Below are positions 1-19,228 of a stretch of DNA of 22,689 nt, piece after piece. The position numbers and the translations under genes were made by a program. The notes under the pieces are model-generated. The model did no database searches. It worked only from the letters and a program-made list of their open reading frames with translations, and had not been told where the DNA came from. This DNA comes from a virus. The stretch spans positions 1 through 22,689 of the IMG/VR virus record IMGVR_UViG_3300021085_000239; one strand, given 5' to 3'. Each line of letters begins with the position of its first letter. Positions within the stretch are counted from its first letter, which is position 1.

Positions 1-842
1 TGATGACACGTTCCTGGTCTAAAATCTACAGATGCGCCTTCAACTCTCTGATGAATAGTACGCTCGACACCTTCCGCATACTCCATATGACCAAGCCTAT
101 CGTACTTATAAGTATTACTAGCGCCATCCCAATTATCTTTAAGTGTTACGTTATTTCCATTGATCGCATCTATCTGTGCGAACCTGTCCACTTCGAAAAT
201 ATACGTACCGTCCTCGATTCCCTTAGCATCCGCAGTAAAAGCTACTTTACCTGAATTATAATATCTGCTAACAACGCCTTCAACCGGCATATTATTGGGA
301 AGTTGAGGGTCTCCTGGGTTCATAGTGGGTTTTAATCGTGCAGGATTAAACTCATTATTACGCCATCGAGCGTTACCACCACTGGTTACCATGCTTGAGG
401 TAAACGTGTCGCTAGAATCTTCAGGATATAAGTTGATGCCAGCCGCGATCACTCCTCGTGACCAGGTTTTAGCCTCAACTTCAAAACTAGGAAAGCCTCC
501 TACAACTGCAATCCAAATTTTATCGGTATCCGCTAATTTGGGAAAAGGGTTGTCTCCTGCGTTTGAAAGCGTTGCGTTTTTACTTCCGTTGGTAAGAGTA
601 ATAGTTGCAGGCCCTAAACGGGTTCTGCTGGGGGATCCCTCTAGCTCAATTATTCTATCATCATTTAAGAAAACAGAGGCGGCACCATCTACTAAGCCAT
701 ATACAGGGCCTTCCGAGAGCATATCCGTAGTAATAATTGTTTGATGACTTCTATTAGTCATCTTGTCTACCAAATTGTTAGGGCCACCGCCGTATACAGC
801 ACCGTTTGTATTGCCACCGCCGCCGTGTCGTAAATAATTCAT
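1..842 (-). CDS. J: Tail tip / host-specificity protein J-like, N-terminal part (cut by window edge)
   Basis: This frame starts at an ATG that overlaps the stop of the gpI-like gene (ATGA) and stays open for 280 codons to the left edge, so the 3' part is missing. The start reads MNYLRHGGGGNTNGAVYGGG. Near residues 40-65 comes a motif with SEGPVYGLVDGA and FLNDDRI, the usual opening of lambda gpJ-type central tail fibre proteins (D-M-L-SEGPIxGL followed by a structural-domain FLND). In that family the protein builds the tail tip below the baseplate hub and carries host-receptor contacts in its C-terminal half, which lies outside the window. The gene order M-L-K-I-J is exactly that of lambda. 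The family assignment is firm; receptor specificity cannot be judged. Confidence 0.9.
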   Translation of the reverse strand, partial: MNYLRHGGGGNTNGAVYGGGPNNLVDKMTNRSHQTIITTDMLSEGPVYGLVDGAASVFLNDDRIIELEGSPSRTRLGPATITLTNGSKNATLSNAGDNPFPKLADTDKIWIAVVGGFPSFEVEAKTWSRGVIAAGINLYPEDSSDTFTSSMVTSGGNARWRNNEFNPARLKPTMNPGDPQLPNNMPVEGVVSRYYNSGKVAFTADAKGIEDGTYIFEVDRFAQIDAINGNNVTLKDNWDGASNTYKYDRLGHMEYAEGVERTIHQRVEGASVDFRPGTCH

Positions 843-1549
843 CTTAAATGCCTCTGATCGTTGTACTCGTCTCTTTGGTTCTCAGAACCTCCAGTGGTTC
901 CTGGAATTGTTATAATGCTACCGTTTCCAAGGACTGGCAGCCCTGTAATACCTGGTACTCTACCATGGTTTACATCCATTGATAGGGGTCTTCCTGGTAT
1001 TCGTAGTTCCCCGTAAAGAACAGGTACAGGGTCTCCTGGTTTAATATTTTGAGCACCTCCATTGAAAGCATAGTTTTCGGGCGAGTCTTTATCTACGCTA
1101 GGGTCTGGTGCCATCATTTCTTGTATACCCGCTATTGCTAAATTAACTGCCAAACCTTCTATCGCTGTAACAATTTTTGCACCATGTGTTGCCATAAAGG
1201 TACCGGCATTTGCTGCTGCTGCCTTACCAGCGATGTAAGGGCCAACATATACTACAAGTATCACCGCGGCAACAATTTTTAAGGCTTTCTTAGAACCCGC
1301 AGGCACAGCAGAGATTGTCACATCTCCTTCCTCGAGGTTTAACAAAAGATCGTCTTCTGAAAGTGATCGACCTTCCTGCTCTATATGAAACCCAATACCG
1401 TCTTCGTTACATTTTAGAAGATAATCCCTAAACTCAGGTCTATTTGCATGAATACACCTAACAATTTCTCGACCTGAAGTAGCATTGACTTGAAACTTCC
1501 TTCCAAATCTTTCGCCTAATTCTCCTTGCAAGTGAACACTACGCATCAT
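839..1549 (-). CDS. I: Tail assembly protein I-like (236 aa)
   Basis: The N-terminal ~80 residues have the pattern of the lambda tail assembly I family: GELGERFGRKF, a Ser/Glu-rich helix start, then RPEFRDYLL, consistent with a ubiquitin-like fold. A hydrophobic stretch at about residues 89-108 (ALKIVAAVILVVYVGPYIAG) and an Ala-rich one up to 143 follow, then the family-typical NYAFNGGAQN and PVPVLYGELRIPG (about 159-186). The C-terminus is Gly-rich and variable. Lambda gpI (223 aa) is needed for tail tip initiation. The gene overlaps the K-like gene by 11 bases and the J-like gene by 4, so the three are surely one translational unit. Two ATGs lie at the start (1549 and 1546) and I cannot choose between them. 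Confidence 0.88.
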   Translation of the reverse strand: MMRSVHLQGELGERFGRKFQVNATSGREIVRCIHANRPEFRDYLLKCNEDGIGFHIEQEGRSLSEDDLLLNLEEGDVTISAVPAGSKKALKIVAAVILVVYVGPYIAGKAAAANAGTFMATHGAKIVTAIEGLAVNLAIAGIQEMMAPDPSVDKDSPENYAFNGGAQNIKPGDPVPVLYGELRIPGRPLSMDVNHGRVPGITGLPVLGNGSIITIPGTTGGSENQRDEYNDQRHLR

Positions 1550-2238: not shown

Positions 2239-3360
2239 TTAAAAGTTTCCTGCTCCGGGAAATGAACCAAACGGTATTACGGGGTTATGCTTTTTACTCT
2301 TGGGTAGAGACGCTTGAGATGCGTCAACGTGTTGAATAGCAAACCTACACTTACATGAATTTAAAGTTTTTCCACATAAATCCTCTCGTTCCCAATAAGG
2401 AGAGTTTAAGGCAGGCGTATTACCTTGATTATTAGTGGCGATTGATCTAAAAATACATCGTACACTATAGCCGTTAATAGTTACCTGCCTATACACTAAG
2501 TCTCCTAAACTATAAGTAGTTGTATTACCCCAGGAGGTAAATCCGTGTACCTCTTTCCAGTAGTTATCATTCGGAGGCGTAGTTGCAGCACTACTAGTAA
2601 AAACTGCTTGGGACTGATAATTTTTACCTCCATAAGATACATAACTTGATTGAGTATAGCTCTGTGAGTTTGAATATGCACTTATTGAGCTCAATAGGCT
2701 GACAGCTACTAAAGGCTCATCTTTTTCATTGAAGAACGTATCGTGAAGGTGACCATCTTCCGCATACCTTGTTTGGCTACTTCTGGGCCAAATACATCCA
2801 CCTTTTTGATATACTTGCTGTCCTTGATATACCCAAGAGCAATATTTTCCTACAGCTACTCTTCGTGGTATTTGGATTCCCTCTAGATCATAAACTGCTG
2901 CAAGTTCAAAAGTTACAGCAACACCTGTCATACTTGAGACCCTATCTATAACATACGAGGCAATATTCATTTCTACTGGAGGGTTGTTGCTGTTTCCTGT
3001 ACCGTCATCCAAATACTTCTCAAGTGTTGTTCTACGAGTAATTGTAGAGCCTACTAACTCGTCATATTCTTTGATACCAAGAGCTGTTTTTAAGACACTA
3101 GAAACATTTGCTATAGCAAGAGTAGGGCGTGCAGAGGCACCTGAAGTGGATTGTTCCACTCCGCCCATCAGTACAGGCAAAGCATTATATGTACGAACAG
3201 TAGAAGTGTTTACTCTATCTCTAAAATGAACATCCTGTAGTAGATCGTCTACTCCAGGGTGAAAGTAATATACTGTTCCACTTTTGTCAAGCTCAAAAAG
3301 CTCTACTAGGCCGCTATCTACTGTTTGCCCCTGTACGTCAGTTGCTATTAAATTACTCAT
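2239..3360 (-). CDS. L: Minor tail protein L-like with an inserted double CBM5/12-like module (373 aa)
   Basis: The N-terminal 220 residues follow lambda gpL (phage minor tail protein L), the tail tip hub layer that binds an iron-sulfur cluster through four cysteines. Candidate ligands are C174 (GKYCSW), C189 (GGCIWP), C329 (DLCGKT) and C336 (NSCKC); the last pair is seven residues apart as in lambda. Between C189 and C329 the spacing is 140 residues, where lambda, as I recall it, has about 23. The extra stretch (about 222-328) holds two tandem repeats, each with aromatic-x5-Y, V-x-Y-x-G or GDLVY, and a closing NP/PP...YW, which resemble carbohydrate-binding modules of family 5/12. Its start overlaps the M-like stop by 4 bases. 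At 373 residues the protein is longer than lambda gpL (about 232), mostly because of this insertion. Confidence 0.9.
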   Translation of the reverse strand: MSNLIATDVQGQTVDSGLVELFELDKSGTVYYFHPGVDDLLQDVHFRDRVNTSTVRTYNALPVLMGGVEQSTSGASARPTLAIANVSSVLKTALGIKEYDELVGSTITRRTTLEKYLDDGTGNSNNPPVEMNIASYVIDRVSSMTGVAVTFELAAVYDLEGIQIPRRVAVGKYCSWVYQGQQVYQKGGCIWPRSSQTRYAEDGHLHDTFFNEKDEPLVAVSLLSSISAYSNSQSYTQSSYVSYGGKNYQSQAVFTSSAATTPPNDNYWKEVHGFTSWGNTTTYSLGDLVYRQVTINGYSVRCIFRSIATNNQGNTPALNSPYWEREDLCGKTLNSCKCRFAIQHVDASQASLPKSKKHNPVIPFGSFPGAGNF

Positions 3361-3731
3361 GCTTCAAAAACTCTTCTTAAAGTTGCTGTTAGACTATAGT
3401 AGTCTCCGTATTCATAAACTGTTGAGTAGTTATCACAAACTACTTTTATTGCTTTTTCATTTCCCGAGCTGTTAGTGTCTGGTATTCTAAAAATGAAATT
3501 TGTTACTCCTGCTTTATCATCTAAAAAAGTTATTACATCATCAATAAACGCCTTTTCTCTTTGTCGAAAGGATATTGAATATTCTTCTGCAATATTATTT
3601 ATACCATTTATTACTCGCTGCTCATACCCGTCTCCGAATTTAGCCACCTGGACTGAAGGCGTGCTCTTTCTTGACATGCTTTTATCGGGCGTAGCATAAT
3701 CTGCTCCATTATAAATAAAACCTATTGCCAT
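3357..3731 (-). CDS. M: Minor tail protein M-like (124 aa)
   Basis: The motif VQVAKFGDGYEQR at about residues 27-39 and a C-terminal Y-x-S-L-T-A-T-L-R-R are typical of the lambda gpM family (about 109-130 residues). This protein forms the tail tip layer between the tape-measure-loaded hub and the tail tube. The start codon overlaps the stop of the tape measure gene (TAATG), and its own stop overlaps the start of L by four bases. Order and size match lambda H-M-L. No signal peptide or membrane segment is seen. Confidence 0.9.
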   Translation of the reverse strand: MAIGFIYNGADYATPDKSMSRKSTPSVQVAKFGDGYEQRVINGINNIAEEYSISFRQREKAFIDDVITFLDDKAGVTNFIFRIPDTNSSGNEKAIKVVCDNYSTVYEYGDYYSLTATLRRVFEA

Positions 3732-6700
3732 TATGATGCTCCATACGGGCTAAGTATACCGCCCGATCTTTTTTGATTTTGCATTTCTCTTTGCACAGCG
3801 ATAGCAATAGCTTGGCCCAGACCTTCAGCTTGATCATCATCCGCACTTTCTGTTGAGGTTGTACCATCTGTAGATACATTTACAACTACATTATTTTGCT
3901 GACTTCCTCCGCCTTTCATTTCGACAGGTATTTTTCCTCCATGAGGTAAAGGCACTACAGCTTCTGTGCCGTGCAATACGGCAGGGTAGCCTGCAGTTGA
4001 TCCTCGTGCAATACCGCCCGAAGCGTATCCTTGTACTTTCTTACCTTGAGAAAATACTCCACCGTTTCGTGCCCCCGGTAAAAAGAAACTACCCACACCT
4101 TTTAGAATGTCGGTAAACAGGCCAGAGCCGTCTTCCCCTCCAAAGAGTCCTGAGAATAAATCTCCGAAAAGATCTCCAAAACCATCCAATCCATCTTTAA
4201 ATATATTCCCTAATCCTTCTAAAAATCCTTGGTCGCCATGAAAAATAGACTCTACATTTCCTACAAACCCATCAAAGATTCCTTTTAAACCTTTACCTTT
4301 ACCGCCAGTGACGATAACTTCTTCCATCGTACCTTTGGGCAAATTTTTCCCTTCAGCAATATCTTCGGCGGTTACACCATCGGTCTGTCCTCCAGATTCT
4401 ATTCCTAAAAAGTCTGATCCTAGCTTTTTGAGTTTTTCCCCGATACCTAGACCTGAACCCGTTTTGCCATCTGTACCAGACCCTTTGCCTGTACCAGACC
4501 CTCCGCCTATATCAGACCCTCCGCCTATAAGATCTTCAGAAGTATTCCCAGTGTCGCCTGTTAGGGTTCCTGCAAGAGCATCCTTTATTTGCTTAGCTGC
4601 AATGGCTCCGCCCTCCACCATAGCTTTTTTCATTTTTTCTTCTGGTGTCTCTTTCTTTGCAAAGCTAAAAATATCACTTGTTAATTGTTTTGCTAACTGA
4701 TCTGCTGCTGCTTCGAGAGTACTTTGCGCGATTCCCATAATAGCATCTTTGAAACTACTTTCATTTCCTTTAATCAGATCTGCTATAGCTACCTGAGTAG
4801 ATCCTTCAGCTGCCGCAGTCATAGCATCAACAAGCTGATAATATCTATCTATATTACGCTCTACCTGCTCTTGTTGAGCGTTTAACAAGTGCAATTCATG
4901 TTGCATTGCTTCACGCTGCGCCTCGCTTAGTGTGAGGTCACCTTCGGAGTTGAGATTCATCTTATCAAGAATAGCTCTACGTTTTGCTTCAATCTGTGCA
5001 ATTTGTGTAAGATTATTTATCTGTTCTTTTTGAAGAGGAGTTGCTCCGATCATTGATTGAGCTCTTATTGCATTGAGTTTTTTCGTCTCATTAGCAAGAT
5101 TTATAGTAACACCTTCCAACTTAGTCATAAATTTAAGTTGGGTTCGCAACTCTGCAAGTCTTTTCTTCGCCCCTTCATTGTCTCCAACTTGCTTTAGCAG
5201 CTTCTCTTCTGCCTTTATCTGATCGTTGATCAGACTGATTAGCTTCGTTTGCGGTGTAATAAACATTTGTATTGCATTCTTTGCCGCAGTAAATTGCTTG
5301 TTTACTTCTTTTTGTTGTTGTTTCAAGAACGCAGACATTCCACCGGTTTCTTCAATTTCTTTAGCAAGCTCTGTGAAACGCTTTGCCTGCTCTGGAGCAA
5401 GCTTTCCTGTACTTTTCAATATATTTAAGTACATAAGGTACTCTCTACCAGAATCAGTTGCCGCCATTCCAGTTGCTTTAGTACCTTCAATAGCTATCTG
5501 TACTACTTCCTGTAGTGTATCTCCTGCTAATTGTGCTTGCTCTTCGAAATTATCTCCACCAAACAAACCAGAAAGAAGGCCTCCTCCTTTTAGTTTATTT
5601 TTGTATTTAGTTGCACTTCCTTGGCTACCGAAGTATCCTTCTTTGTTTGCCTCCTCACCAGCTTCGAATCTAGACATTTCTGGATTAAGTTTTTGAAGCT
5701 CTCTTACTCTCTTTCCGAACTCATTGATATTTGTACTCTTAACTGAAAAATTAGAAAGAGGATTAGTAGCTAGTGTCTCTAATAGACTAATTATTTGAGG
5801 AGCTACTTGCGCTGTTTGTTTACCGAAAGCTGCAATACTTTCTCTTGTTCTATCTACGACATGAGTAAGATTTCCTTCTCCATCAAATCTTTTTCTCATT
5901 TCATTCTGCATATCTGCGAATTTTTCAAATTCTTTGATGCTTTCTTTCATTGCAGAGGTTGTTTCTTGTATTTTATCCTTAAATTCTGTTAGTGCTTCAT
6001 CTTCTTTGAAAAAACCAAAGAACTCTAAAATACTTTTACCGAGATCTGCAACCATCATAATTATACCTATGACACCCAGTAGCTTCATCGCCCTATTTAC
6101 AGCTTTTCCCATCTTTGCCGCCGCTTTACTCATAAAGCTCATCGTTTTTTGCCAAATAACTTGTATTCTCTTAGTTGCGATTTTAGTAGTAGCAACTACC
6201 CTATCAGTTGTTCTTTTCCAGCTTCTATCAAGTTTGCTGTTACCTGCGATCATCGCATCAATAGCGGCAATATAAGCTCTTTTCTGTTGTTTAGTCATTT
6301 TCTTAACAATGCCTACGCCCTTATTCGCAGAGCGTTTCATTGCGGCTAATTGTCTCTTACTCGGAGTTCCTCCTGCTTGCATAACTCCTGCACCCGTACC
6401 TTCTTTTACATCTATGCCTTTTAAAGCTCCTTTACCAGCCCCTATTGGATCAGCGGCGGCTGCGGCTTTTACAGCCTCTAATTCTTGAATATCTAGCTTT
6501 GTTTGTTCAAACGCGGCTGAGGCTCTTTGAGCACTTTCTTCTGCTTTTTCAGCAAAATTAGTTAGTCCCGGTATAAGTTGCTTTATAAGAGGAACAGCTA
6601 ACAAACCTAAAGCAATAGCGAAAGATCTTATATTCTTACTAAAAAATTCGGCTACAGGCTCTCCGATCAGGGCGAAGAAAGATTTAACAGGTTTCAAAAC

Positions 6701-7480
6701 TTCATCAAATGCAACAGCCAGCTTATCCATAGCATTTGCTTGAATATCGGTGGCGGCGGCTACATGATTATATTTTTCGGCTAACTGTCCTTGTACTTCT
6801 GCAAATACCGCTTGTTTCTTTTCAAAGTTTGAAAGATCTTTTGCAGACTTATTTAGAGTTGCGGCATAGTTTTCTTGAGCATCTGCCAGTCGAAGTGTAA
6901 TACCCAATTCGTCCAAGAGTTCAGGCTCTGCCTTAGTAACACCACGAACTAGTCGATTGAAAGAATCTGTAACATCTCTACCCAGTATTTTTGCGACATT
7001 CGCTGCACCTTCTGCTAGTTCAGTTATCTGTCCTGCTCCTAACCCCGAGGCGATACCAATCGAGGCCGCTTCAGAAGCTGCCTGGAAGTTCAACATAGCG
7101 TCTGAAGCTGTTTGAATTTCGTTGGTCAAAGTTCTCATACCCTGACCTGTTGCACCTGTAAAGGCTACCTGCGCGTCTTGAACTACACGAAAGTCTGCGG
7201 CTGACTTTAAGAACTGAAAGGCGGCGCTTACGGCAAAGATGTTTGCTGCAAGAGTTGCATAAGCACCTACAAGACCCCCTGTGCCCTGTGCCATTTTTGA
7301 AAAGTTTTTAGTGGTATTGGAAGAAGCGTTGGCGGCTCCTTTTAGATTTCGATCAGCAGTGCGAGCGCCTTTTGCAACGTTATCTAGGCCTTCTCCGGCT
7401 TTTTTAGCACCAAGGCCGACCTTTTTAGTAGAACCTTTATCGTCTACTACTACGTCTATCTCTACTTTATTCTTTGCCAT
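3731..7480 (-). CDS. H: Tail tape measure protein (1249 aa)
   Basis: This is the largest gene in the window, placed between the tail assembly chaperones and M, the canonical position of the tape measure. The N-terminal ~260 residues are Ala-rich helix (e.g. KSAADFRVVQDAQVAFTGAT and an AAEGAANVAKILG segment) typical of TMPs. Two hydrophobic segments are visible, about residues 286-305 and 460-483, in line with a membrane-penetrating TMP. Residues about 500-930 are charged and predicted coiled coil. A Gly/Ser-rich repeat lies near 985-1003. The C-terminus carries the common TMP motif GGIARGSTAGYPAVLHGTEAVVPLP. Its length sets tail length: at roughly 0.15 nm per residue, about 180-190 nm (inference). 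No lytic transglycosylase or peptidase domain is evident. Confidence 0.95.
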   Translation of the reverse strand: MAKNKVEIDVVVDDKGSTKKVGLGAKKAGEGLDNVAKGARTADRNLKGAANASSNTTKNFSKMAQGTGGLVGAYATLAANIFAVSAAFQFLKSAADFRVVQDAQVAFTGATGQGMRTLTNEIQTASDAMLNFQAASEAASIGIASGLGAGQITELAEGAANVAKILGRDVTDSFNRLVRGVTKAEPELLDELGITLRLADAQENYAATLNKSAKDLSNFEKKQAVFAEVQGQLAEKYNHVAAATDIQANAMDKLAVAFDEVLKPVKSFFALIGEPVAEFFSKNIRSFAIALGLLAVPLIKQLIPGLTNFAEKAEESAQRASAAFEQTKLDIQELEAVKAAAAADPIGAGKGALKGIDVKEGTGAGVMQAGGTPSKRQLAAMKRSANKGVGIVKKMTKQQKRAYIAAIDAMIAGNSKLDRSWKRTTDRVVATTKIATKRIQVIWQKTMSFMSKAAAKMGKAVNRAMKLLGVIGIIMMVADLGKSILEFFGFFKEDEALTEFKDKIQETTSAMKESIKEFEKFADMQNEMRKRFDGEGNLTHVVDRTRESIAAFGKQTAQVAPQIISLLETLATNPLSNFSVKSTNINEFGKRVRELQKLNPEMSRFEAGEEANKEGYFGSQGSATKYKNKLKGGGLLSGLFGGDNFEEQAQLAGDTLQEVVQIAIEGTKATGMAATDSGREYLMYLNILKSTGKLAPEQAKRFTELAKEIEETGGMSAFLKQQQKEVNKQFTAAKNAIQMFITPQTKLISLINDQIKAEEKLLKQVGDNEGAKKRLAELRTQLKFMTKLEGVTINLANETKKLNAIRAQSMIGATPLQKEQINNLTQIAQIEAKRRAILDKMNLNSEGDLTLSEAQREAMQHELHLLNAQQEQVERNIDRYYQLVDAMTAAAEGSTQVAIADLIKGNESSFKDAIMGIAQSTLEAAADQLAKQLTSDIFSFAKKETPEEKMKKAMVEGGAIAAKQIKDALAGTLTGDTGNTSEDLIGGGSDIGGGSGTGKGSGTDGKTGSGLGIGEKLKKLGSDFLGIESGGQTDGVTAEDIAEGKNLPKGTMEEVIVTGGKGKGLKGIFDGFVGNVESIFHGDQGFLEGLGNIFKDGLDGFGDLFGDLFSGLFGGEDGSGLFTDILKGVGSFFLPGARNGGVFSQGKKVQGYASGGIARGSTAGYPAVLHGTEAVVPLPHGGKIPVEMKGGGSQQNNVVVNVSTDGTTSTESADDDQAEGLGQAIAIAVQREMQNQKRSGGILSPYGAS
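4472..4525 (-). repeat. Three 18-bp tandem repeats encoding the Gly-rich linker of the tape measure
   Basis: Three adjacent 18-bp units (4472-4489, 4490-4507, 4508-4525) share the core ACCAGACCC or ATCAGACCC followed by T-(T/C)-(T/C)-GCC. They encode GGGSDI, GGGSGT and GKGSGT near residue 990 of the tape measure. Because the unit is a multiple of three, gain or loss of a unit keeps the frame and would change only linker length. Confidence 0.8.
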
Positions 7481-7905
7481 TAGCCTTTAACGTTATGGGT
7501 GAAATTCTTTCCACCGCTCGCAGATTTACGTTCTTCTGCCTTTCTTTTCCTTTCTGCTTTGTCTGCTCTATGATTCATTAGGATGTTTTCCCAAAGTTTC
7601 ATAATATAGAGTATTGTCTTGGGGTCTTCTACTTCGTACAGGTCAAAGTAAAAATCTACTTTATGCCAAAATTTACCCATATATGTTCCCGACATTCCTT
7701 CCCATCTGTCCTCAAGAAGTCCAAATATAAAAAATGCCACTTGGACTTCAGTAGGGAAATCTGAAGTCTCGAGCGGCATTTTGTCAGGGTCTGGCTCTTC
7801 GCCTAGCTGTTCACAAATTAAGAGATATTTATCTACATCAATCTGATCTTGCTGTTTGGCATGTTTTTCAAGTAAACCCTTTATTTGATTTACTTGTTCC
7901 CAGTA
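7480..7905 (-). CDS. Tail assembly chaperone T domain, expressed as the -1 frameshift GT fusion
   Basis: This open frame has no start of its own near its beginning. Reading from the slippery site in the -1 frame relative to gene G it continues YWEQVNQIKGLLEK without a stop for 141 codons to 7480. Joined to the first 136 residues of G it gives a 277-residue GT protein. An internal ATG at 7779 would give only 99 residues (MPLETSDFPTEVQ), cut in the middle of the domain and without a ribosome site, so I regard it as not the real start. In lambda, gpGT binds the tape measure and recruits tail tube subunits; it is absent from the mature tail. Its end abuts the tape measure start (TAATG). The mechanism is well established for this gene pair; the site here is read directly. 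Confidence 0.85.
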   Translation of the reverse strand, partial: YWEQVNQIKGLLEKHAKQQDQIDVDKYLLICEQLGEEPDPDKMPLETSDFPTEVQVAFFIFGLLEDRWEGMSGTYMGKFWHKVDFYFDLYEVEDPKTILYIMKLWENILMNHRADKAERKRKAEERKSASGGKNFTHNVKG

Positions 7906-8312
7906 AAATTTTCTAGTTCACTCACTGTTTCTGTTACCCAAGTATCGAAATCACTTGAGTTTCTCATAAGGAGTTCTGCGTTTTCCTGAGTATGAACTAA
8001 TTCATCTTCCGGGTCAAGAGCCGAGACATCTACCAATAGAAGCTCTTCTAGGTACTGATACTTTAGGCCTGACCAACCTTTGATTACTGCTTTACAATAC
8101 TCTACTAGGAATTTTTCTTCGTTCAACTCTTCTTCTGGTTGACGAGTTTTCTTACTGAATTTTGTTGTAACACATTTTTTTCGTAGCTTTACTAGCTCTT
8201 CTCGGGCTAGATAACATAAGTCTACCGTCATGCCTTTGGCAAAAGGAAAATCAATTGTTACAGTTTTACTAGGAGTCATAAGACTCGCTAAAGAAATAGG
8301 GGATTCGCTCAT
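7890..8312 (-). CDS. G: Tail assembly chaperone G-like (140 aa)
   Basis: This is a small acidic soluble protein between the major tail protein and the tape measure, the position of lambda gpG. I see no strong sequence motif, but three points support the call: gene order, size, and a -1 slippery heptamer at codons 135-136 that leads into a long open frame. The last four residues (TGNK) are made only without the shift. It starts from ATG with AAGGA six bases upstream, just downstream of a terminator hairpin. Gene G is made in large excess over GT in the family. Confidence 0.85.
   Translation of the reverse strand: MSESPISLASLMTPSKTVTIDFPFAKGMTVDLCYLAREELVKLRKKCVTTKFSKKTRQPEEELNEEKFLVEYCKAVIKGWSGLKYQYLEELLLVDVSALDPEDELVHTQENAELLMRNSSDFDTWVTETVSELENFTGNK
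7905..7911 (-). other. Programmed -1 ribosomal frameshift site A_AAT_TTT
   Basis: On the minus strand the zero-frame codons are GAA AAT TTT ACT. The heptamer A-AAT-TTT fits X_XXY_YYZ, and after slipping back one base both tRNAs can still pair (AAA, TTT). It lies five codons before the G stop, and the -1 frame is open both through the G stop and for 141 codons beyond. Position and phase (-1) match the lambda G/GT site; the heptamer sequence itself differs from lambda's. No clear downstream stem was found by eye. Confidence 0.85.
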
Positions 8313-12078: not shown

Positions 12079-14052
12079 TTAAGCTACTAGATCGATCTTA
12101 ACTGCTGATCGGTTACCAGCTGAGTCTGCAACCAACTCTTCAAAGCCTAGGGCTTGTGAAGCGACGATTACATTACGCTGATTACCAACTTCGTAATCAG
12201 TCTCAACCTGTACACCACGTAGACGTGGGATTACATAGTTGCGAGTGTTAACAGCGAATGCTGCAGGTACGCCTGCGGCTTCAGCTGCGAAGCTGTCAGA
12301 TACGATTACGGGTGAACCGAATACCGCACCAATTTGACCAGTGATCTTAGTTGCAACATCAGAACCTACATCAGTAACGTCCTGGAAGCCTGCATCTTCG
12401 ATAAGTTCGAAGTAACGAGCTTGTGATACGATGTATGCAACATCAGCAGGGTTAACACCATACTTACCCATGTCCTTACGAGCAGCAAGTAGTTTAGCGG
12501 CAGTAAGTTTCTCGGCATCAGAGATGTCAAGAGTGTCAGCGTTAGCAGTTGCGAACCCGTCAAGACCAGTAATAGAACCAGAACCGTTGATGATAGCGTT
12601 GTCAACAGCGCGAGCGTGAGCACGTGCTACTGAATCGACTAGCATAGGCATCAAGTTGATGAGAACTTGCTCATCTACGTTGTTGTCCATGAAAGTCTGG
12701 CTGATCAAACGATAAGCGTTCAAGATTACCTGTGAAGGCTTGTAAGTGTTGTCTGAAGCACCACGGTTTTCCAAGTTACCAGCAGAAGCTGCACCAGTTT
12801 GGAAAGTTGCAGGCTCTACGTCAGGCTGGATAGGAAGAACAGTAGCAGCACCATTTACTTGAATTTCACGGAACAAGCCCGCAGTTTGCAAGTTAAGAGT
12901 AACTTCTTTCTCGATTTGACGAGAAACTTCCTGATCGATGTCACCAGCATTAGTAGTGTAGTCGATACCAGCTTTTTCCATGATGCCCTGAGCGAAGTCA
13001 GTGTTCATGCCTTTACCAGTGAAAGTACCTAGTAAAGATGCGTGCATGAAGTCCTTGCCCCACTTAGATAGGTCACCTTGACCACGGCCGTCAAACGTAC
13101 GCTTGCTGTTACGCATAGCTTCGATTTCAGCTTGTTTTTCTTCGAGGTCTTTGCTGAAACCAGCAATTACTTCGTCGATTTTTGCGTCTTTTTCTTGAAG
13201 TTTAGCTTCAACGTCAGACATAAGTTTTTCAACACCTGATTCAACACCAGAGTTTACTACGCTTTTAATTGATTCAGCTTGCAAAGCTTGTGCTTTTTCA
13301 GCTTCCTGAGCTGCTTTAGCTTGTGCTTCTTCAGCTGCTTTTTGCTCGGCCTGCTTTAAAGCAATTTTCATAGCAGTATCATCTGCTACTTTCTTTGCAA
13401 AAGCTTCCAAGTCGATGTTTTGATTATCCATCTTGATCTCCTGATCTGCGGAAATATCCGCGCTTACCGGTGTATCACTAGCTATTCCAGAAGTAATATC
13501 TTCATCCTTAGCCAGAGACTGACCGGCTAGATCTACACGCTTTGTGAAAGTTTTTTTGAATTCATTGTACTCATCTTCCGAGTCAAATGACTTCGCGAGC
13601 GAAAAAGTAGCTGATTGGTTGCATGGTACCGATACTACCGATACCTCAAACAGCTCAGCGTCCTTAATCATTAGTCCATCAGTTTCCTGTAAGTAATCAG
13701 CGTCCTTGACCCGGAAACCAACGGAAAAGGCTCCAAGTACGCCGTCTTTAACTAGTTGACAAACACTAGCAGGTGCAGCTTTGCTAATCTTTGCTTCAAG
13801 TTCTAAACCATTCGGGCCGGCTTTCAACCCCGTGGCTCGACCAATCGGCTTATCATAGTCATGATTAAACAGAATGATTGGATTTTTCTCAAAATTTGAC
13901 AAACCACCTTTTGTCCAAGCCTCTGCTGAGATTGAATCACCCGCGCGATCAAAGTCAGTAGTACTTGCCATACCTCGAATCATAACAGAACCATCTGCTA
14001 CTTCTTCTAGGGCTTTAAAGGTGGAAGTAAGATTAAAAATCTTATTCATCAT
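12079..14052 (-). CDS. Prohead protease - scaffold - major capsid protein fusion (657 aa)
   Basis: One uninterrupted frame joins three modules. Residues 1-155 are an S78-type prohead protease: H64 in LFNHDYDKPIGR, S110 in GAFSVGF, and an acidic residue in LFEVSVVSVPCNQ (E136). Residues about 208-315 are an Ala/Glu/Lys coiled coil, the delta/scaffold region. From about 318 (after NSKRTF) the HK97-fold capsid follows, with ATVLPIQPDVEP, PSQVILNAYRLISQTFMDNN, an NGSGSITGLDGF loop and a C-terminal ALGFEELV. HK97 itself keeps protease and capsid separate; fusions are known in other phages. A consensus internal ribosome site precedes M208. Two start ATGs (14052, 14049) follow AGGATAAAG. Cleavage near 315-318 would leave a mature capsid of about 340 residues (inference). 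Confidence 0.93.
   Translation of the reverse strand: MMNKIFNLTSTFKALEEVADGSVMIRGMASTTDFDRAGDSISAEAWTKGGLSNFEKNPIILFNHDYDKPIGRATGLKAGPNGLELEAKISKAAPASVCQLVKDGVLGAFSVGFRVKDADYLQETDGLMIKDAELFEVSVVSVPCNQSATFSLAKSFDSEDEYNEFKKTFTKRVDLAGQSLAKDEDITSGIASDTPVSADISADQEIKMDNQNIDLEAFAKKVADDTAMKIALKQAEQKAAEEAQAKAAQEAEKAQALQAESIKSVVNSGVESGVEKLMSDVEAKLQEKDAKIDEVIAGFSKDLEEKQAEIEAMRNSKRTFDGRGQGDLSKWGKDFMHASLLGTFTGKGMNTDFAQGIMEKAGIDYTTNAGDIDQEVSRQIEKEVTLNLQTAGLFREIQVNGAATVLPIQPDVEPATFQTGAASAGNLENRGASDNTYKPSQVILNAYRLISQTFMDNNVDEQVLINLMPMLVDSVARAHARAVDNAIINGSGSITGLDGFATANADTLDISDAEKLTAAKLLAARKDMGKYGVNPADVAYIVSQARYFELIEDAGFQDVTDVGSDVATKITGQIGAVFGSPVIVSDSFAAEAAGVPAAFAVNTRNYVIPRLRGVQVETDYEVGNQRNVIVASQALGFEELVADSAGNRSAVKIDLVA
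13429..13442 (-). promoter_or_regulatory. Internal ribosome-binding site and start inside the protease-capsid fusion
   Basis: The minus strand reads AGGAG-ATCAAG-ATG, a consensus Shine-Dalgarno with a 6-base spacer before an in-frame ATG at 13431 (M208). It falls exactly between the protease and the scaffold-capsid modules. Starting here gives a 450-residue scaffold-capsid protein without protease. That would solve the stoichiometry problem of the fusion, since few proteases but hundreds of capsid subunits are needed per head. Translation from it is inferred, not shown. Confidence 0.75.
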
Positions 14053-14389
14053 CTTTATCCTGTTTCACTGCTGGTTTAACAGCAGGCTTGACCGCTGCCT
14101 TTGGTGCCGGCTTTGGTGCTTTAGAAAGAGCCGGCTTTGGTGCTGGTTTAATAGCAGGTTTTGCCTTTTCTTCCTTTTTCTTCTCAATCAATTTCATAAG
14201 TTCTGGATGAGCTCCTTTCATCATTTCAATCGCTCGAGAATAACTTCTTCCTACGTTGCGAATACCTGATAACATGACGGGTTTGTCGTCTTGCTTAATG
14301 TACTCGTCTTGGGTCATGATCTTACCTTTTTCAGCAAAATACATTGCTAGGTCACGACATAGTTTAATTCTTTGTGGTCTATTCGACAT
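14042..14389 (-). CDS. Small protein with KPA-repeat tail between portal and protease-capsid (115 aa)
   Basis: I do not recognise this family. The first ~70 residues look globular and helical (RIKLCRDLAMYFAEKG, VMLSGIRNVGRSYSRAIEMM). The last ~45 are a Lys/Pro/Ala repeat with KPAPK and KPAVK units and an acidic end. I chose the ATG at 14389, which has AAGGA eight bases upstream and overlaps the portal stop by 11 bases. A longer frame from 14461 would overlap the portal by 83 bases without a ribosome site. Its 3' end overlaps the capsid fusion start by 11 bases, so the three are translationally linked. A head assembly role is plausible from position alone. Confidence 0.7.
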   Translation of the reverse strand: MSNRPQRIKLCRDLAMYFAEKGKIMTQDEYIKQDDKPVMLSGIRNVGRSYSRAIEMMKGAHPELMKLIEKKKEEKAKPAIKPAPKPALSKAPKPAPKAAVKPAVKPAVKQDKDDE

Positions 14390-15578
14390 CTTCATTTCCT
14401 TCTTCTGGTCTTCCGCCCTCATCGGGATTAGTTGCAGAACCTGCGATGTTTGCTGGGACACGAATATCTTCAGCTCCTTCTACAGGCTCAAACCCTAAAC
14501 GCTCTCTTGCTTCGTTAGGAGTTATAATACCGCCGTTCACTAGTGACGTGTAGTAGGCGGAGGCATCTCGTAGCTCAGGTTGTAGAGCAGGTATTTCTGT
14601 GATGTCTTCTTTTAAGTCAAAACCGAAATATCTTTCGAGTGCAAAATTAATTTTTCGAACTATAGGAAGTATAGTCTCAAGATAATACATTCGCATATTT
14701 GGGCGAATGTTGGCGTTGTTGCCAGAGTCCATCATAATTGGAGGTACTCCGAGCGCCTTCAAAATTATCTTTTCATTGTCGGCGATACTATTTTGAAAAT
14801 CGAGATCACGAAAATTTGTATTTGTGATAGCATCTACTTCAATACCGCCGTCCAAAATTAGGGGTCTACGACCGCCTGCTTCTGGTTGGTAACGTGACTG
14901 CCACGAAACCATCATACGTTCTTTGATCTTTTCAGAGAGTGTGTTTGGAGACTTGAGTACCAAGCCGGGAACAGCACCGTTCTTAAAAAAGTTGTCCTGA
15001 AACTTACGCATCTTCATCATAAGTTGCATAGTTCGTAAAGCAGGACTTAGGCGTGGAACACCTCGGTAAATAGAATGGAAGGAGTTTTCTTTTATATGAA
15101 TGATTTCACTAGGCTTGTAGTCAATTTTCTCATTAAAAGTAAACTTCTCAATATAAGTATCTTTACTTGCATGAATAACCATTTTATCAGAAGGAAGGTG
15201 GTACAAGTGTACGCCATCGTAGTAGATAAAGATGTTACCATCAAGTACAAAGTCAATAATTAAGTTACGTTTAAATGTGCTAATATCCTGAAAGGGATTT
15301 GGTTCTTGATTTAAAAGTAACTCAACTTTTGATCGTTTAATTCCTTTGATAACACTCATGCCTTTATGTTGTCCACCCACAAGAGTAGGAATCTCGGCAG
15401 CATCATCTACAATAATGTTTACGGCTCGGTTTACAATCTCTAGCTCTTCGTAGGCTCTTTCATAAGAAAAAGTAGGTTCGCGAGAGCTTTGAATTTCGTT
15501 GCCATAGTAAGATTGAGCAGGATTCAGTTTCTCCTCTACATCGGCGGGTTTGTTACTAAAAGGATTATACCATGCCAT
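14379..15578 (-). CDS. Portal protein, HK97 family (399 aa)
   Basis: Family features: N-terminal W-Y-N-P-F; EELEIVNRAVNIIVDDAAEIP near residue 45-65; KRNLIIDFVLDGNIFIYYDG near 104-123; IIHIKENS; RGVPRLSPALRTMQLM; the conserved segment KNGAVPGLVLKSP; and the C-terminal LGVPPIMMD plus NEARERLGFEPVEGAED. The dodecameric portal is the DNA entry vertex and docks the terminase. Length is typical for the family (about 400). It overlaps the HNH gene by 14 bases upstream and the KPA-repeat gene downstream. Confidence 0.93.
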   Translation of the reverse strand: MAWYNPFSNKPADVEEKLNPAQSYYGNEIQSSREPTFSYERAYEELEIVNRAVNIIVDDAAEIPTLVGGQHKGMSVIKGIKRSKVELLLNQEPNPFQDISTFKRNLIIDFVLDGNIFIYYDGVHLYHLPSDKMVIHASKDTYIEKFTFNEKIDYKPSEIIHIKENSFHSIYRGVPRLSPALRTMQLMMKMRKFQDNFFKNGAVPGLVLKSPNTLSEKIKERMMVSWQSRYQPEAGGRRPLILDGGIEVDAITNTNFRDLDFQNSIADNEKIILKALGVPPIMMDSGNNANIRPNMRMYYLETILPIVRKINFALERYFGFDLKEDITEIPALQPELRDASAYYTSLVNGGIITPNEARERLGFEPVEGAEDIRVPANIAGSATNPDEGGRPEEGNEDVE

Positions 15579-15933
15579 TATGTTTTTCTCTTTGAATCTC
15601 TACCCACCGCATCTGCTTTTTAGCAGTTCCTAAAGCTGGGTCTTTACCGTAAATTGAGTGAAGTTTTAGATGGTGAGTATGACACAATGTTGCTGTGTGA
15701 TCATAAAGCTCAGCATGATGTTCTTCTATAAAGTCATCCCGAAGTGACTGAATGTACTCAGGATTATGTTTGTTCTTTTTTAACCATTGATTTAACAATG
15801 GTGTGAGACTGTAATAATGGTGAAAGTCTAACTGCTCTGTCTCACCACAAATCTCGCAAGAGGAACCCTTCTCATACTTGGACTTTGCCTTATCTCGTAC
15901 ATACTTTACATAGTCGCGTTTTAGCTTAGGCAT
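15565..15933 (-). CDS. HNH nuclease-like protein next to terminase (122 aa)
   Basis: A zinc-binding HNH pattern is visible: CEIC (C26, C29), then LDFHHYYSLTPL (His38-His39, with the HNH first His), and CHTHHLKLH (C84, H87, H88, H92). Free-standing HNH proteins beside terminase and portal genes are common in cos-type siphoviruses, and HK97 gp74 stimulates terminase cutting. The location suggests the same job here rather than a homing endonuclease, although homing cannot be excluded from sequence alone. The start ATG is preceded by AAAGGAAA. A consensus promoter lies 34-62 bases upstream. The last 14 bases overlap the portal gene. Confidence 0.8.
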   Translation of the reverse strand: MPKLKRDYVKYVRDKAKSKYEKGSSCEICGETEQLDFHHYYSLTPLLNQWLKKNKHNPEYIQSLRDDFIEEHHAELYDHTATLCHTHHLKLHSIYGKDPALGTAKKQMRWVEIQREKHNGMV

Positions 15934-15959
15934 TTTCCTTTGGTTCCTCGATTTTTCAT
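15921..15959 (-). CDS. Possible 12-codon leaderless upstream ORF (MKNRGTKGKCLS)
   Basis: The ATG lies 7 bases after the -10 box, where transcription should start, so the transcript would begin at or next to this AUG. The 12 codons end in TAA inside the HNH gene, overlapping its start in another frame by 13 bases. It may be a leader peptide or simply chance. I include it because the TerS-like gene shows the same -10/ATG spacing. Confidence 0.35.
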   Translation of the reverse strand: MKNRGTKGKCLS

Positions 15960-15966
15960 TTAAAGA

Positions 15967-15995
15967 ATTATATCGGCTTTAGGGTAACTTGTCAA
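15967..15995 (-). promoter_or_regulatory. Consensus sigma70 promoter upstream of HNH-portal-capsid genes
   Basis: A perfect TTGACA (15990-15995), exactly 17 bases of spacer and a perfect TATAAT (15967-15972), between the TerL stop and the HNH gene. Predicted start is at about 15959-15961. It would drive HNH, portal and the capsid operon with host RNA polymerase. Confidence 0.85.
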
Positions 15996-16018
15996 TAACT
16001 ATTTTTGAGTAGGTATCG

Positions 16019-17323
16019 CTAGAAGGATACCTGTGCGGTTTGGAATGAATATAGTCCGTAGCGAAGACCGTCTGCCATGTGAGATGCCATGTTGTGCTTC
16101 GGTTTTTCCTTCATTAGATTTGGGTTGGGATCCCATTGATACGCATCGAGGCAAGCAAGGGACTGTTTGCATTCTTGATCGACAAAGAGTTTGTCGTTTT
16201 CGATAATGCCTGACACATGTCCAATTCCGTCAAGTACAGACTTCTTCGCGTTGATGGTGGAAATATCGTAGTTTTGCGCGAGATCGAACCGTGTTTGTTG
16301 AGCAGCTGAATCAATATAAATGAAATCAATATCCCAGCGATCAATGAGTTTCTGGATCTCGGTAGCGTGTTGCTCAGTCGTTCTCTCACTGTTAAAATAC
16401 TCATCTACTAAATAATACTTATCTGCATCCCAGTCGTACGCGAGTACACATAGTGCTGTGGGATCTTTGTAACCAACGTCCAACCCCGCAAAGACGTCCA
16501 TTTTACTAGTATCCAGCTGAGACAAGTCTTTGACTTGAGTCTCAAAGTTAAATTTCCATATCTGTCCTTCATAGGTATTGAAGTCAGCTTCGTATTCCTG
16601 TTTAAATTCTGCTTCTGACATAGACTTACGTGCTTCCGAAATATCCATCTCGCTCATACGTGGATTATCTCGATAGGTTGCTCGTATACTACACCATTCT
16701 GGAAAGTCTTCTGAGAATCCTCTGTAGAAGAACTCAGAGAACCAGTTGTTTCTGCCTCGAGGTGTTGAGATAAAAATTGCTTTCGAGTTATCTTTATCTA
16801 GTGTAGGTCGAAGGGCTACGTTGAAAGCATCCTTGCCGTCAGCAAGTGCGGCTTCGTCAAATATGATTAGATCGTAAGAACGGCCTACACAAGAGTCAAC
16901 CTGATTAACAGAACCCATTCTAACGGTAGACCCGTTAGAGAGTTCGATTACTTTATCTTTTGCGTTATCTTTTGTAACTTCTAGATCAAAGTGTTTAATT
17001 AGATTCCTCTGTAAATCAAAAGAAATCTGAGACAAAGAATAGTTGGGAGACATTATTAGAATATTAGAGCCAGGAACTAAGGACACGAGCTGTCCAATTA
17101 GATTGGCAATATAGGTCTTGCCTTGCCGACGGGAGACTGCGGCAGAGACAAACCGGTATTTTGGGTTGTTAATCGCATTGATAATTGCTATCTGCGAAGG
17201 TAACGGAGTGACGTTCAATAGCTCCAAGTATGAAGCTATAGGAAGTTTTATGAACTTTGTCTCAGATTGTAACTCTACAATTTCGTCAGAGATAATATCT
17301 CTGCGGCTTACTTCTACTGCCAT
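16019..17323 (-). CDS. terL: Terminase large subunit (434 aa)
   Basis: ATPase: Walker A at residues 64-71 (SRRQGKTY), Walker B LIIFDE at 152-157 with the catalytic Glu, and the coupling motif STPRG at 186-190. Nuclease: D282 in GLDVGYKDPTA, D338 in FIYIDSA and D418 in MADGLRYGLY, the three acidic metal ligands of the RNase H-like fold. The protein translocates DNA into the prohead and cuts it. Length is typical. The first ATG follows the stop of a 48-residue gene by one base. Unusually, the small-subunit candidate lies 3 kb upstream with about nine genes between. Confidence 0.95.
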   Translation of the reverse strand: MAVEVSRRDIISDEIVELQSETKFIKLPIASYLELLNVTPLPSQIAIINAINNPKYRFVSAAVSRRQGKTYIANLIGQLVSLVPGSNILIMSPNYSLSQISFDLQRNLIKHFDLEVTKDNAKDKVIELSNGSTVRMGSVNQVDSCVGRSYDLIIFDEAALADGKDAFNVALRPTLDKDNSKAIFISTPRGRNNWFSEFFYRGFSEDFPEWCSIRATYRDNPRMSEMDISEARKSMSEAEFKQEYEADFNTYEGQIWKFNFETQVKDLSQLDTSKMDVFAGLDVGYKDPTALCVLAYDWDADKYYLVDEYFNSERTTEQHATEIQKLIDRWDIDFIYIDSAAQQTRFDLAQNYDISTINAKKSVLDGIGHVSGIIENDKLFVDQECKQSLACLDAYQWDPNPNLMKEKPKHNMASHMADGLRYGLYSFQTAQVSF

Positions 17324-18039: not shown

Positions 18040-18356
18040 TATTTCTTCCCTGCGTATGCGTTGGCTCCAAAGAATGCTGAAACCAGGGCTGCGATAGCTA
18101 CAAAGTAAGTGGGAGCAATATCACCGATTATTTTAGCGGCGCTATCTAACCCGAATAATGATGTGCAGAATATGCCGAAAGGATAAAACAACATTCCCCA
18201 AAGAGAGAACCAAGTCATCTTTCGCATTGCATCACGCTGTGCATCTTGATCTTCTAGTTCTTTCCTACGAAACTCAAGGTACATTTCTTGTTCGACGGCA
18301 GAAACTTCTCCGTCACCATTTGTGTCTGCGGGATGAAAATTCTTGTCGTCTACCAT
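18039..18356 (-). CDS. Holin-like membrane protein with N-terminal EF-hand loop (105 aa)
   Basis: Residues 11-22 read DTNGDGEVSAVE, a complete EF-hand calcium loop (D1, N3, D5, G6, V8, E12). A charged helix follows (EFRRKELEDQDAQRDAMRK), then two membrane helices at about 48-67 (WFSLWGMLFYPFGIFCTSLF) and 82-101 (PTYFVAIAALVSAFFGANAY). Size and topology fit a holin or small channel. I recall similar proteins in marine phages. It overlaps the preceding basic-protein gene by 7 bases. A single EF loop suggests calcium-dependent binding or dimer formation, not shown. Confidence 0.75.
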   Translation of the reverse strand: MVDDKNFHPADTNGDGEVSAVEQEMYLEFRRKELEDQDAQRDAMRKMTWFSLWGMLFYPFGIFCTSLFGLDSAAKIIGDIAPTYFVAIAALVSAFFGANAYAGKK

Positions 18357-18658
18357 TTTACTTTATTCGCCCAATATGCTGCTGACATTTTGCCTTTAGC
18401 TATATTCTTGGCGTGTCGTGCTTTGAAAGACGCCCTCTTTTTCTTCATTCGAGTAGATTCTCCAGCCTTCGGCTTCCCTGCCGTTTTAGCTCCCTGCTGG
18501 CCGAAACGAATTGTTTTCACTTTAGTGCCAACTTTAGCTACAACGATATGAGACTTCTTAGCATGGCCTGGAGTACGTTTGGGTTTATTATAACCACTAA
18601 CGCCTGCCCGTTTTAACCTTGAGTCTTTTTTCTTCCTCGCTTTTCGCTTCGCTGGCAT
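18350..18658 (-). CDS. Lys/Arg-rich basic protein (102 aa)
   Basis: I chose the ATG at 18658 (MPAKRKARKKK), which follows GGAG and the lipoprotein stop; a longer frame from 18697 would overlap the lipoprotein without a ribosome site. Motifs: VSGYNKPKRTPGHAKKSHIVVAKVG, TIRFGQQG, and a C-terminal SFKARHAKNIAKGKMSAAYW ending NKVKW. Closely similar sequences (FNKPKRTP, KSYYARH) recur in marine phages as I remember, usually without function. The charge is extremely positive, so nucleic acid binding is likely but unproven. Confidence 0.8.
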   Translation of the reverse strand: MPAKRKARKKKDSRLKRAGVSGYNKPKRTPGHAKKSHIVVAKVGTKVKTIRFGQQGAKTAGKPKAGESTRMKKKRASFKARHAKNIAKGKMSAAYWANKVKW

Positions 18659-18662
18659 AAGT

Positions 18663-18854
18663 TTACTCCTTGTCTTGCTTGCCGGAATCGACGACACCTT
18701 TGACGTCTTGTCCGACTGCTACTGTAATATCTGCTACTGTGTTGCCTACTCCGCCTAGAGTATTGTTTACCATTGCCTGCGTGCCGTCAATGGCTGCATT
18801 CATGGTTCCACAAGCTCCTAGTAGTAGTGCAGATACTATAACTAAATACTTCAT
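18663..18854 (-). CDS. Small phage lipoprotein (63 aa)
   Basis: The start chosen is the ATG at 18854 (GGAGA eight bases upstream). The sequence MKYLVIVSALLLGACGTMNA carries a clean lipobox LLGAC, so Cys15 should be lipidated by the host. The 48-residue mature part is Gly/Val/Thr-rich with hydrophobic repeats (TLGGVGNTVADITVAVGQD). A frame extending to a GTG at 18932 adds 26 residues ahead of the signal peptide and is rejected. It might be an outer-membrane spanin subunit, but there is no adjacent i-spanin-like gene and no Pro-rich linker. A surface or exclusion role is also possible. Confidence 0.8.
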   Translation of the reverse strand: MKYLVIVSALLLGACGTMNAAIDGTQAMVNNTLGGVGNTVADITVAVGQDVKGVVDSGKQDKE

Positions 18855-18940
18855 TTGTTTCTCCGTATTGTCCTGCCCTTGGTCAAAAATGTGTCCGATA
18901 TACCGGGGAAGGGCCTTGCTGATAAGTGCCACTTGACACT

Positions 18941-19228
18941 TTATTTTCTTTTTCGCTTCATAGTAGCTTTACGCTTCTTTTTCACGAAAGTTTTAACCAT
19001 AGTGGGTTTACCACCAGGGTTACCTGCTTTTCGTTTTCTTCGAATAGCAGACTTCTTCTGTGCTGCGGTCATACGTGCTGCTTTTGAGGCTGGTACACAT
19101 TTAGGGTACTTACCTTTCTTTGCTTTGCTTCGTCCGCATTTTTCATACCCACCGCCCTTTTTAGGACGGGAGATATCTACCCACTTTTCTTTAAACCATT
19201 TTGTAAGTCCACCACGAGGCTTTGCCAT
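18941..19228 (-). CDS. Lys/Arg-rich basic protein, DUF6321-like (95 aa)
   Basis: The opening MAKPRGGLTKWFKEKWVDI, then PKKGGGYEKCGRSKAKKGKY, PKCVPASKAARMTAAQKKSA and GNPGGKPTMVKTF matches a short family I associate with DUF6321 in marine phages (R-x-G-L-x-x-W-F-x-E-x-W-V-D-I; K-Y-P-x-C). Cys37 and Cys58 could bind metal. The C-terminus is a long K/R run. It begins on the stop of the preceding basic gene (TAATG). The function of the family is not known to me. Confidence 0.75.
   Translation of the reverse strand: MAKPRGGLTKWFKEKWVDISRPKKGGGYEKCGRSKAKKGKYPKCVPASKAARMTAAQKKSAIRRKRKAGNPGGKPTMVKTFVKKKRKATMKRKRK

Follow-up and report, generated by a model that had tools for sequence, protein, structure and literature searches.

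Predicted tandem CBM5/12-fold domains in the iron-sulfur loop of the lambda-type tail tip protein gpL of an uncultured phage

What is the segment of about 113 extra residues that separates the cysteine pairs C174/C189 and C329/C336 in the tail tip protein gpL of an uncultured virus of bacteria, and what would it do at the tail tip? The window, i.e. the whole stretch of DNA analysed here, is the 22,689-base IMG/VR virus record IMGVR_UViG_3300021085_000239. Its tail genes lie on the minus strand in the order M-L-K-I-J as in lambda (Table 1). In a sister contig J has at least 1979 aa and a PF13550 match, and a Pfam scan of this J detected no carbohydrate-binding module (CBM).

The gpL identity proposed in the preliminary description was confirmed by the sequence profiles of the lambda gpL family (PF05100 and TIGR01600) and by the HDI fold. 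The predicted structure matched lambda gpL (8iyk_L) with a Z of 14.4, and residues 4-166 matched lambda gpL and the RcGTA and R4C hubs in structure comparison; the matches of the window gpL to 6tba and 8gtc spanned residues 4-166 only. Lambda gpL shares the HDI, the four-cysteine iron-sulfur (Fe-S) domain and the gene order, but it has 232 aa and no insert, and its Cys2 (182) and Cys3 (205) are 23 residues apart, compared with 140 in the window gpL (PMC10721106). The lambda cluster ligands Cys173, 182, 205 and 212 correspond to C174, C189, C329 and C336 here (PMC10721106). These four, already singled out as cluster cysteines from the sequence, were invariant in an alignment of 52 gpLs and are the putative ligands of a cluster. 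The window gpL has six cysteines in total (174, 189, 302, 329, 336 and 338). The fifth one, Cys338 (motif CKCRF), adjoins the fourth Fe-S cysteine, occurs also in many related gpLs, and Cys302 lies inside repeat 2; the codons of Cys338 and Cys302 are at window positions 2347-2349 and 2455-2457.

Table 1. Positions of gene L, its domains and the neighbouring tail genes in the window
Feature	Position	Strand	Evidence
Gene L, tail tip/hub protein gpL, 373 aa	2239..3360	-	PF05100 E=5e-28, TIGR01600 E=7e-30, phrog_18 E=3e-37
HDI / hub attachment domain, residues 1-166	2863..3360	-	Structure match over 4-166
Fe-S domain first half, C174 to C189	2794..2841	-	Both Cys invariant in 52 aligned gpLs; equivalent to lambda Cys173/Cys182 (PMC10721106)
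Insertion, residues 216-328, Cys2-Cys3 loop	2377..2715	-	Absent from sampled cultured gpLs; pLDDT 93-98
Predicted CBM5/12-fold repeat 1, residues 225-273	2542..2688	-	PF02839 best stretch; Z 8.9, 1.8 A over 49 residues to 4tx8
Predicted CBM5/12-fold repeat 2, residues 274-328	2377..2541	-	Z 7.0, 1.9 A over 46 residues to chitinase C 1wvv
Fe-S domain second half, C329 to C336	2353..2376	-	Both Cys invariant in 52 aligned gpLs
Gene M, distal tail protein	3357..3731	-	phrog_14 E=5e-27
Gene K, JAB plus NlpC/P60	1539..2270	-	PF14464 and PF00877
Gene I, tail tip assembly protein	839..1549	-	phrog_32 E=2e-31
Gene J start, runs off window	3..842	-	Open frame

Several other features of the window were recorded. 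The tail chaperone pair G/GT lies at 7480-8312, where the T frame, open from 7917, overlaps the G end at the canonical -1 slippery heptamer A AAT TTT (7911-7905), an arrangement ordinary for lambda-type tails. The head genes (12079-17323) are nearest to those of T5-like phages, with TerL 51% identical to Vibrio T5-like phages and a single 657-aa head protein in which the prohead protease is fused with the capsid protein. Since the head genes are T5-like and the tail is lambda-like, the phage is a mosaic. Two small, very Lys/Arg-rich proteins are encoded at 18350-19228, one of them weakly like DUF5872; they are possible DNA-binding virion proteins.

The preliminary description had placed an insert of about 107 residues at 2377-2697 (residues 222-328). 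Its location between Cys2 and Cys3 held, while its N-terminal border had to be moved, as the structured insert begins at about residue 216. The repeat strings quoted there were both found exactly as given. When scanned against PF02839 (CBM_5_12, curated cut-off 26.2 bits), the isolated insert (residues 216-329) scored 28.0-28.2 bits (E about 2e-6), and none of seven residue-shuffled copies matched. Inside full-length gpL the same match reached only 18.6 bits, under the cut-off, so the CBM assignment rests on the isolated insert together with structure prediction. Each scanned singly, 28 of 39 aligned inserts matched PF02839, the window's included. Throughout the family, a profile built from either repeat retrieved the other. 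The insert as a single sequence gave chance matches only among solved structures, so an alignment profile was needed; this profile retrieved the tandem CBMs of Vibrio DA1 (1e-8), ChiA1 (5e-4) and, weakly, chitinase C (0.02).

The fold was predicted with AlphaFold. The pLDDT of the insert was 95-98 in full-length gpL and 93.4 when the insert was folded alone, and the model contained two tandem CBM5/12-fold domains at high confidence (pLDDT about 93-98). Each is a small all-beta domain of about 45-50 aa, which in the predicted model matched CBM5/12 structures at 1.4-2.1 A over 45-49 residues, as found also with Foldseek. The ranked structure matches for the insert region were mostly CBM5/12 domains, and the nearest solved structures were the chitin-binding domains of chitinases and of the Vibrio chitin deacetylase. 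Repeat 1 was closest to the Chromobacterium chitinase domain 4tx8 (Table 1), and repeat 2, in the insert folded alone, matched chitinase B (1goi; Z 7.4, 1.4 A over 47). The Z values are middling alone, but they agree with the sequence profile. By these profile and model data, the insert is assigned as two tandem CBM5/12-fold domains of about 50 aa each in the Cys2-Cys3 loop, and the tandem CBM5/12-type repeats of the preliminary description were thus borne out.

The Vibrio chitin-oligosaccharide deacetylase (DA1/COD; 4ny2, 3wx7) likewise has two consecutive CBM5/12-fold domains, and the structural match of the insert to this pair had a Z of 8.9 over 89 residues. The rmsd was 9-10 A over both domains, so the relative domain orientation differs from that of the phage insert. 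The DA1/COD domains are attached to an enzyme and keep the ligand Trp (QDWAPS), whereas the phage repeats lack it.

Whether the repeats could bind chitin was judged from the residues aligned with known ligand positions. The sequence of the ChiA1 domain, which agreed with that of 1ed7, served as the reference for aligning 119 phage repeats. The Tyr and Trp that form the conserved hydrophobic core of CBM5/12 (PMC8449059) were kept, with a Tyr662-like residue in 109/119 and a Trp696-like residue in 118/119 repeats, as was the loop proline (Pro689-like, 114/119). The column of ChiA1 Trp687 held no Trp and one Tyr among the 119 repeats. The consecutive Y-W or W-W pair that binds chitin in CBM5 (PMC8449059) was absent from all 119, its columns, assigned from sequence alignment rather than structure superposition, being mainly I/L/A/V and A/S/P. 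Window repeat 1 has one aromatic residue near these columns, the Phe in QAVFTSS. The aligned sequences and models therefore point to a CBM5/12 fold from which the known chitin-binding surface is absent. Since the repeats have lost the exposed chitin-binding aromatics but retain the core Tyr and Trp, chitin, which had been suggested as a possible ligand, is unlikely, and the insert was downgraded as a candidate chitin binder. That the repeats are true chitin or chito-oligosaccharide binders, which would place the phages on chitin particles or chitin-using hosts, would fit with their nearest structural and sequence relatives being chitinase and chitin deacetylase CBMs, but with the Trp687 equivalent and the aromatic pair both missing we give it a very small chance.

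The distribution of the insert was examined by a profile scan of IMG/VR, in which 517 stretches encoded relatives; the best 80 of the 517 were used, plus 34 from a first scan, and insert-less gpLs were sampled by single-query searches. The Cys1-Cys3 spacing fell into bands of 32-43 residues (no insert), 99-121 (one repeat), 140-218 (two repeats) and 257-285 (S-CBS4 type). The sampled gpLs of named phages have 232-262 aa and no insert, except that of cyanophage S-CBS4. In a tree of the N-terminal core, with the insert left out, 41/41 CBM-bearing representatives were on one side with a support of 100/100, and the other side held 25 insert-less and two S-CBS4-type representatives. The four insert states required 5 changes on the tree, against a mean of 27 after shuffling, so that the distribution is most simply explained by a single gain with later shifts in copy number between one and two. 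Within the CBM-bearing clade of uncultured phages the repeat number is 1 or 2 and every sampled member carries the insert, although insert-less members may be under-sampled because, of the two patterns used for scanning, one reaches across the repeat end; the other (GKYCSW) does not. Among the gpLs sampled, the insert is thus restricted to a single clade and, being absent from most gpLs, is not universal in the family. A scan of genome contigs yielded one relative; it lies in a contig of a Porticoccaceae MAG, and this contig may in turn come from a phage. We infer a marine origin of the phage.

Some relatives showed further arrangements. In two gpLs (L051 and L091), CBM repeat 1 itself contains a further module of about 45-50 aa that shows a VGTxFxATGxGxGTG-like pattern, giving a domain within a domain within gpL. 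Another phage (L132; IMGVR_UViG_3300021087_000036, about 29.9-31.9 kb) encodes at 2897-4915 a 672-aa protein consisting for the most part of CBM5/12-type repeats, about eleven in tandem (PF02839 E=2e-39), which looks like a fibre or spike array, and its own gpL has a single degenerate repeat. Pantoea phage PA1 was dropped as a carrier of a CBM-bearing gpL, its match lying in a fibre-like 622-aa protein.

The gpL of S-CBS4 (465 aa; L036, 2507-3904) has a large insertion at the same Cys2-Cys3 position as the window gpL, but it is unrelated, lacks a Pfam CBM match and belongs to a gpL in its own clade. About 25 IMG/VR relatives (L146-L171) share with S-CBS4 an insert of roughly 230 aa at this site. 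The RcGTA g13 and R4C hubs, like the window gpL, carry their insert between the Fe-S/ion-binding halves, both of which bear cysteines, of a gpL-type hub, as judged by comparing the published boundaries with C189 and C329 here (PMC7296036, PMC10276861). Their insert was named oligosaccharide-binding for its likeness to the insertion domain of the LKA1 tailspike (PMC7296036, PMC10276861). It resembles a T4 gp27 domain, whereas the window insert consists of predicted CBM5/12-fold repeats (one or two in the clade). The RcGTA/R4C oligosaccharide-binding domain was not among the structure matches to the insert, an absence that does not exclude likeness. In the evolved Dit and Tal proteins of siphophages with Gram-positive hosts, as here, one or two CBMs sit in loops of tail-tip structural proteins, and host binding was demonstrated for some evolved Dits (PMC7291167). 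The modules of Dit and Tal are often BppA-like, whereas the Fe-S loop of this lambda-type gpL carries CBM5/12-like ones. The window gpL agrees with the evolved proteins in having a CBM-type domain in a loop of a conserved tail-tip protein that is absent in relatives. Literature searches found no paper describing CBM5/12 in gpL. What is new here is the module type and the clade, the insertion site being already known.

With the RcGTA and R4C hubs and the evolved Dit and Tal proteins as precedents, glycan adhesion is our best guess for the role of the insert. The hub ring of lambda is built of three gpL copies, whose Fe-S domains are on the outer surface of the cone (PMC10721106). If this arrangement holds here, each virion would display six repeats around the tip, facing outward from the cone. 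They may act as a low-affinity, multivalent glycan-binding decoration that steadies or positions the tail tip at the cell surface, the ligand probably being capsule, LPS or exopolysaccharide rather than chitin, and the main receptor contact would be supplied by J. Capsule or LPS as ligand, and gpL as a possible second receptor-contact protein besides J, had been suggested in the preliminary description. We assign a probability of roughly 0.6 to the reading as a low-affinity glycan-binding decoration, which would make the window gpL a lambda-type "evolved hub".

The mean identity of the repeats was 32-36%, compared with 50-51% for the hub core. Lower conservation and variable copy number are as expected of a surface module; a decoration that binds nothing would be just as likely to show the former, which does not prove a binding function. 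Repeats that keep the CBM5/12 fold but not sugar binding would serve as structural decoration, spacers or a steric collar round the tip. The conservation of core and loop-structure residues only, with the ligand aromatics lost, argues for such a role, which we nevertheless consider unlikely, since the insert is present in every sampled member of a diverse clade and similar modules of other phages sit in fibres, spikes and baseplates. In favour of the glycan-binding reading, the CBM5/12-type fold occurs also in solved host-contact parts of other phages, namely the Milano baseplate, the 7-7-1 and A-1(L) fibres and the Pam1 tailspike.

Small beta domains can also mediate protein contacts, and the repeats could accordingly be a docking platform for another virion protein, e.g. 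a side fibre, instead of a host-contact domain. The packing of lambda gpL against M and J (PMC10721106) would be in line with such docking, to which we give a small chance.

The Cys2-Cys3 loop is without an insert in lambda and contains one or two predicted CBM5/12 repeats here (with the additional nested module in two relatives). In S-CBS4 it is occupied by an unrelated domain, and in the RcGTA and R4C hubs by one named oligosaccharide-binding. The Fe-S cysteines flank the loop, two on each side. We tentatively propose, as a rather doubtful generalization from these cases, that the loop may be a general plug-in socket for host-contact modules, with the Fe-S cluster as a staple that allows inserts; if this is true, the cluster of gpL gains a testable role. 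The range of CBM-decorated tips, earlier known from the Dit and Tal proteins of Gram-positive-host phages and from the RcGTA and R4C hubs, would widen to include uncultured lambda-tailed phages of a diverse clade, with the variation located in the Cys2-Cys3 loop. The Cys2-Cys3 spacing in gpL provides a searchable handle for candidate host-contact modules outside J.
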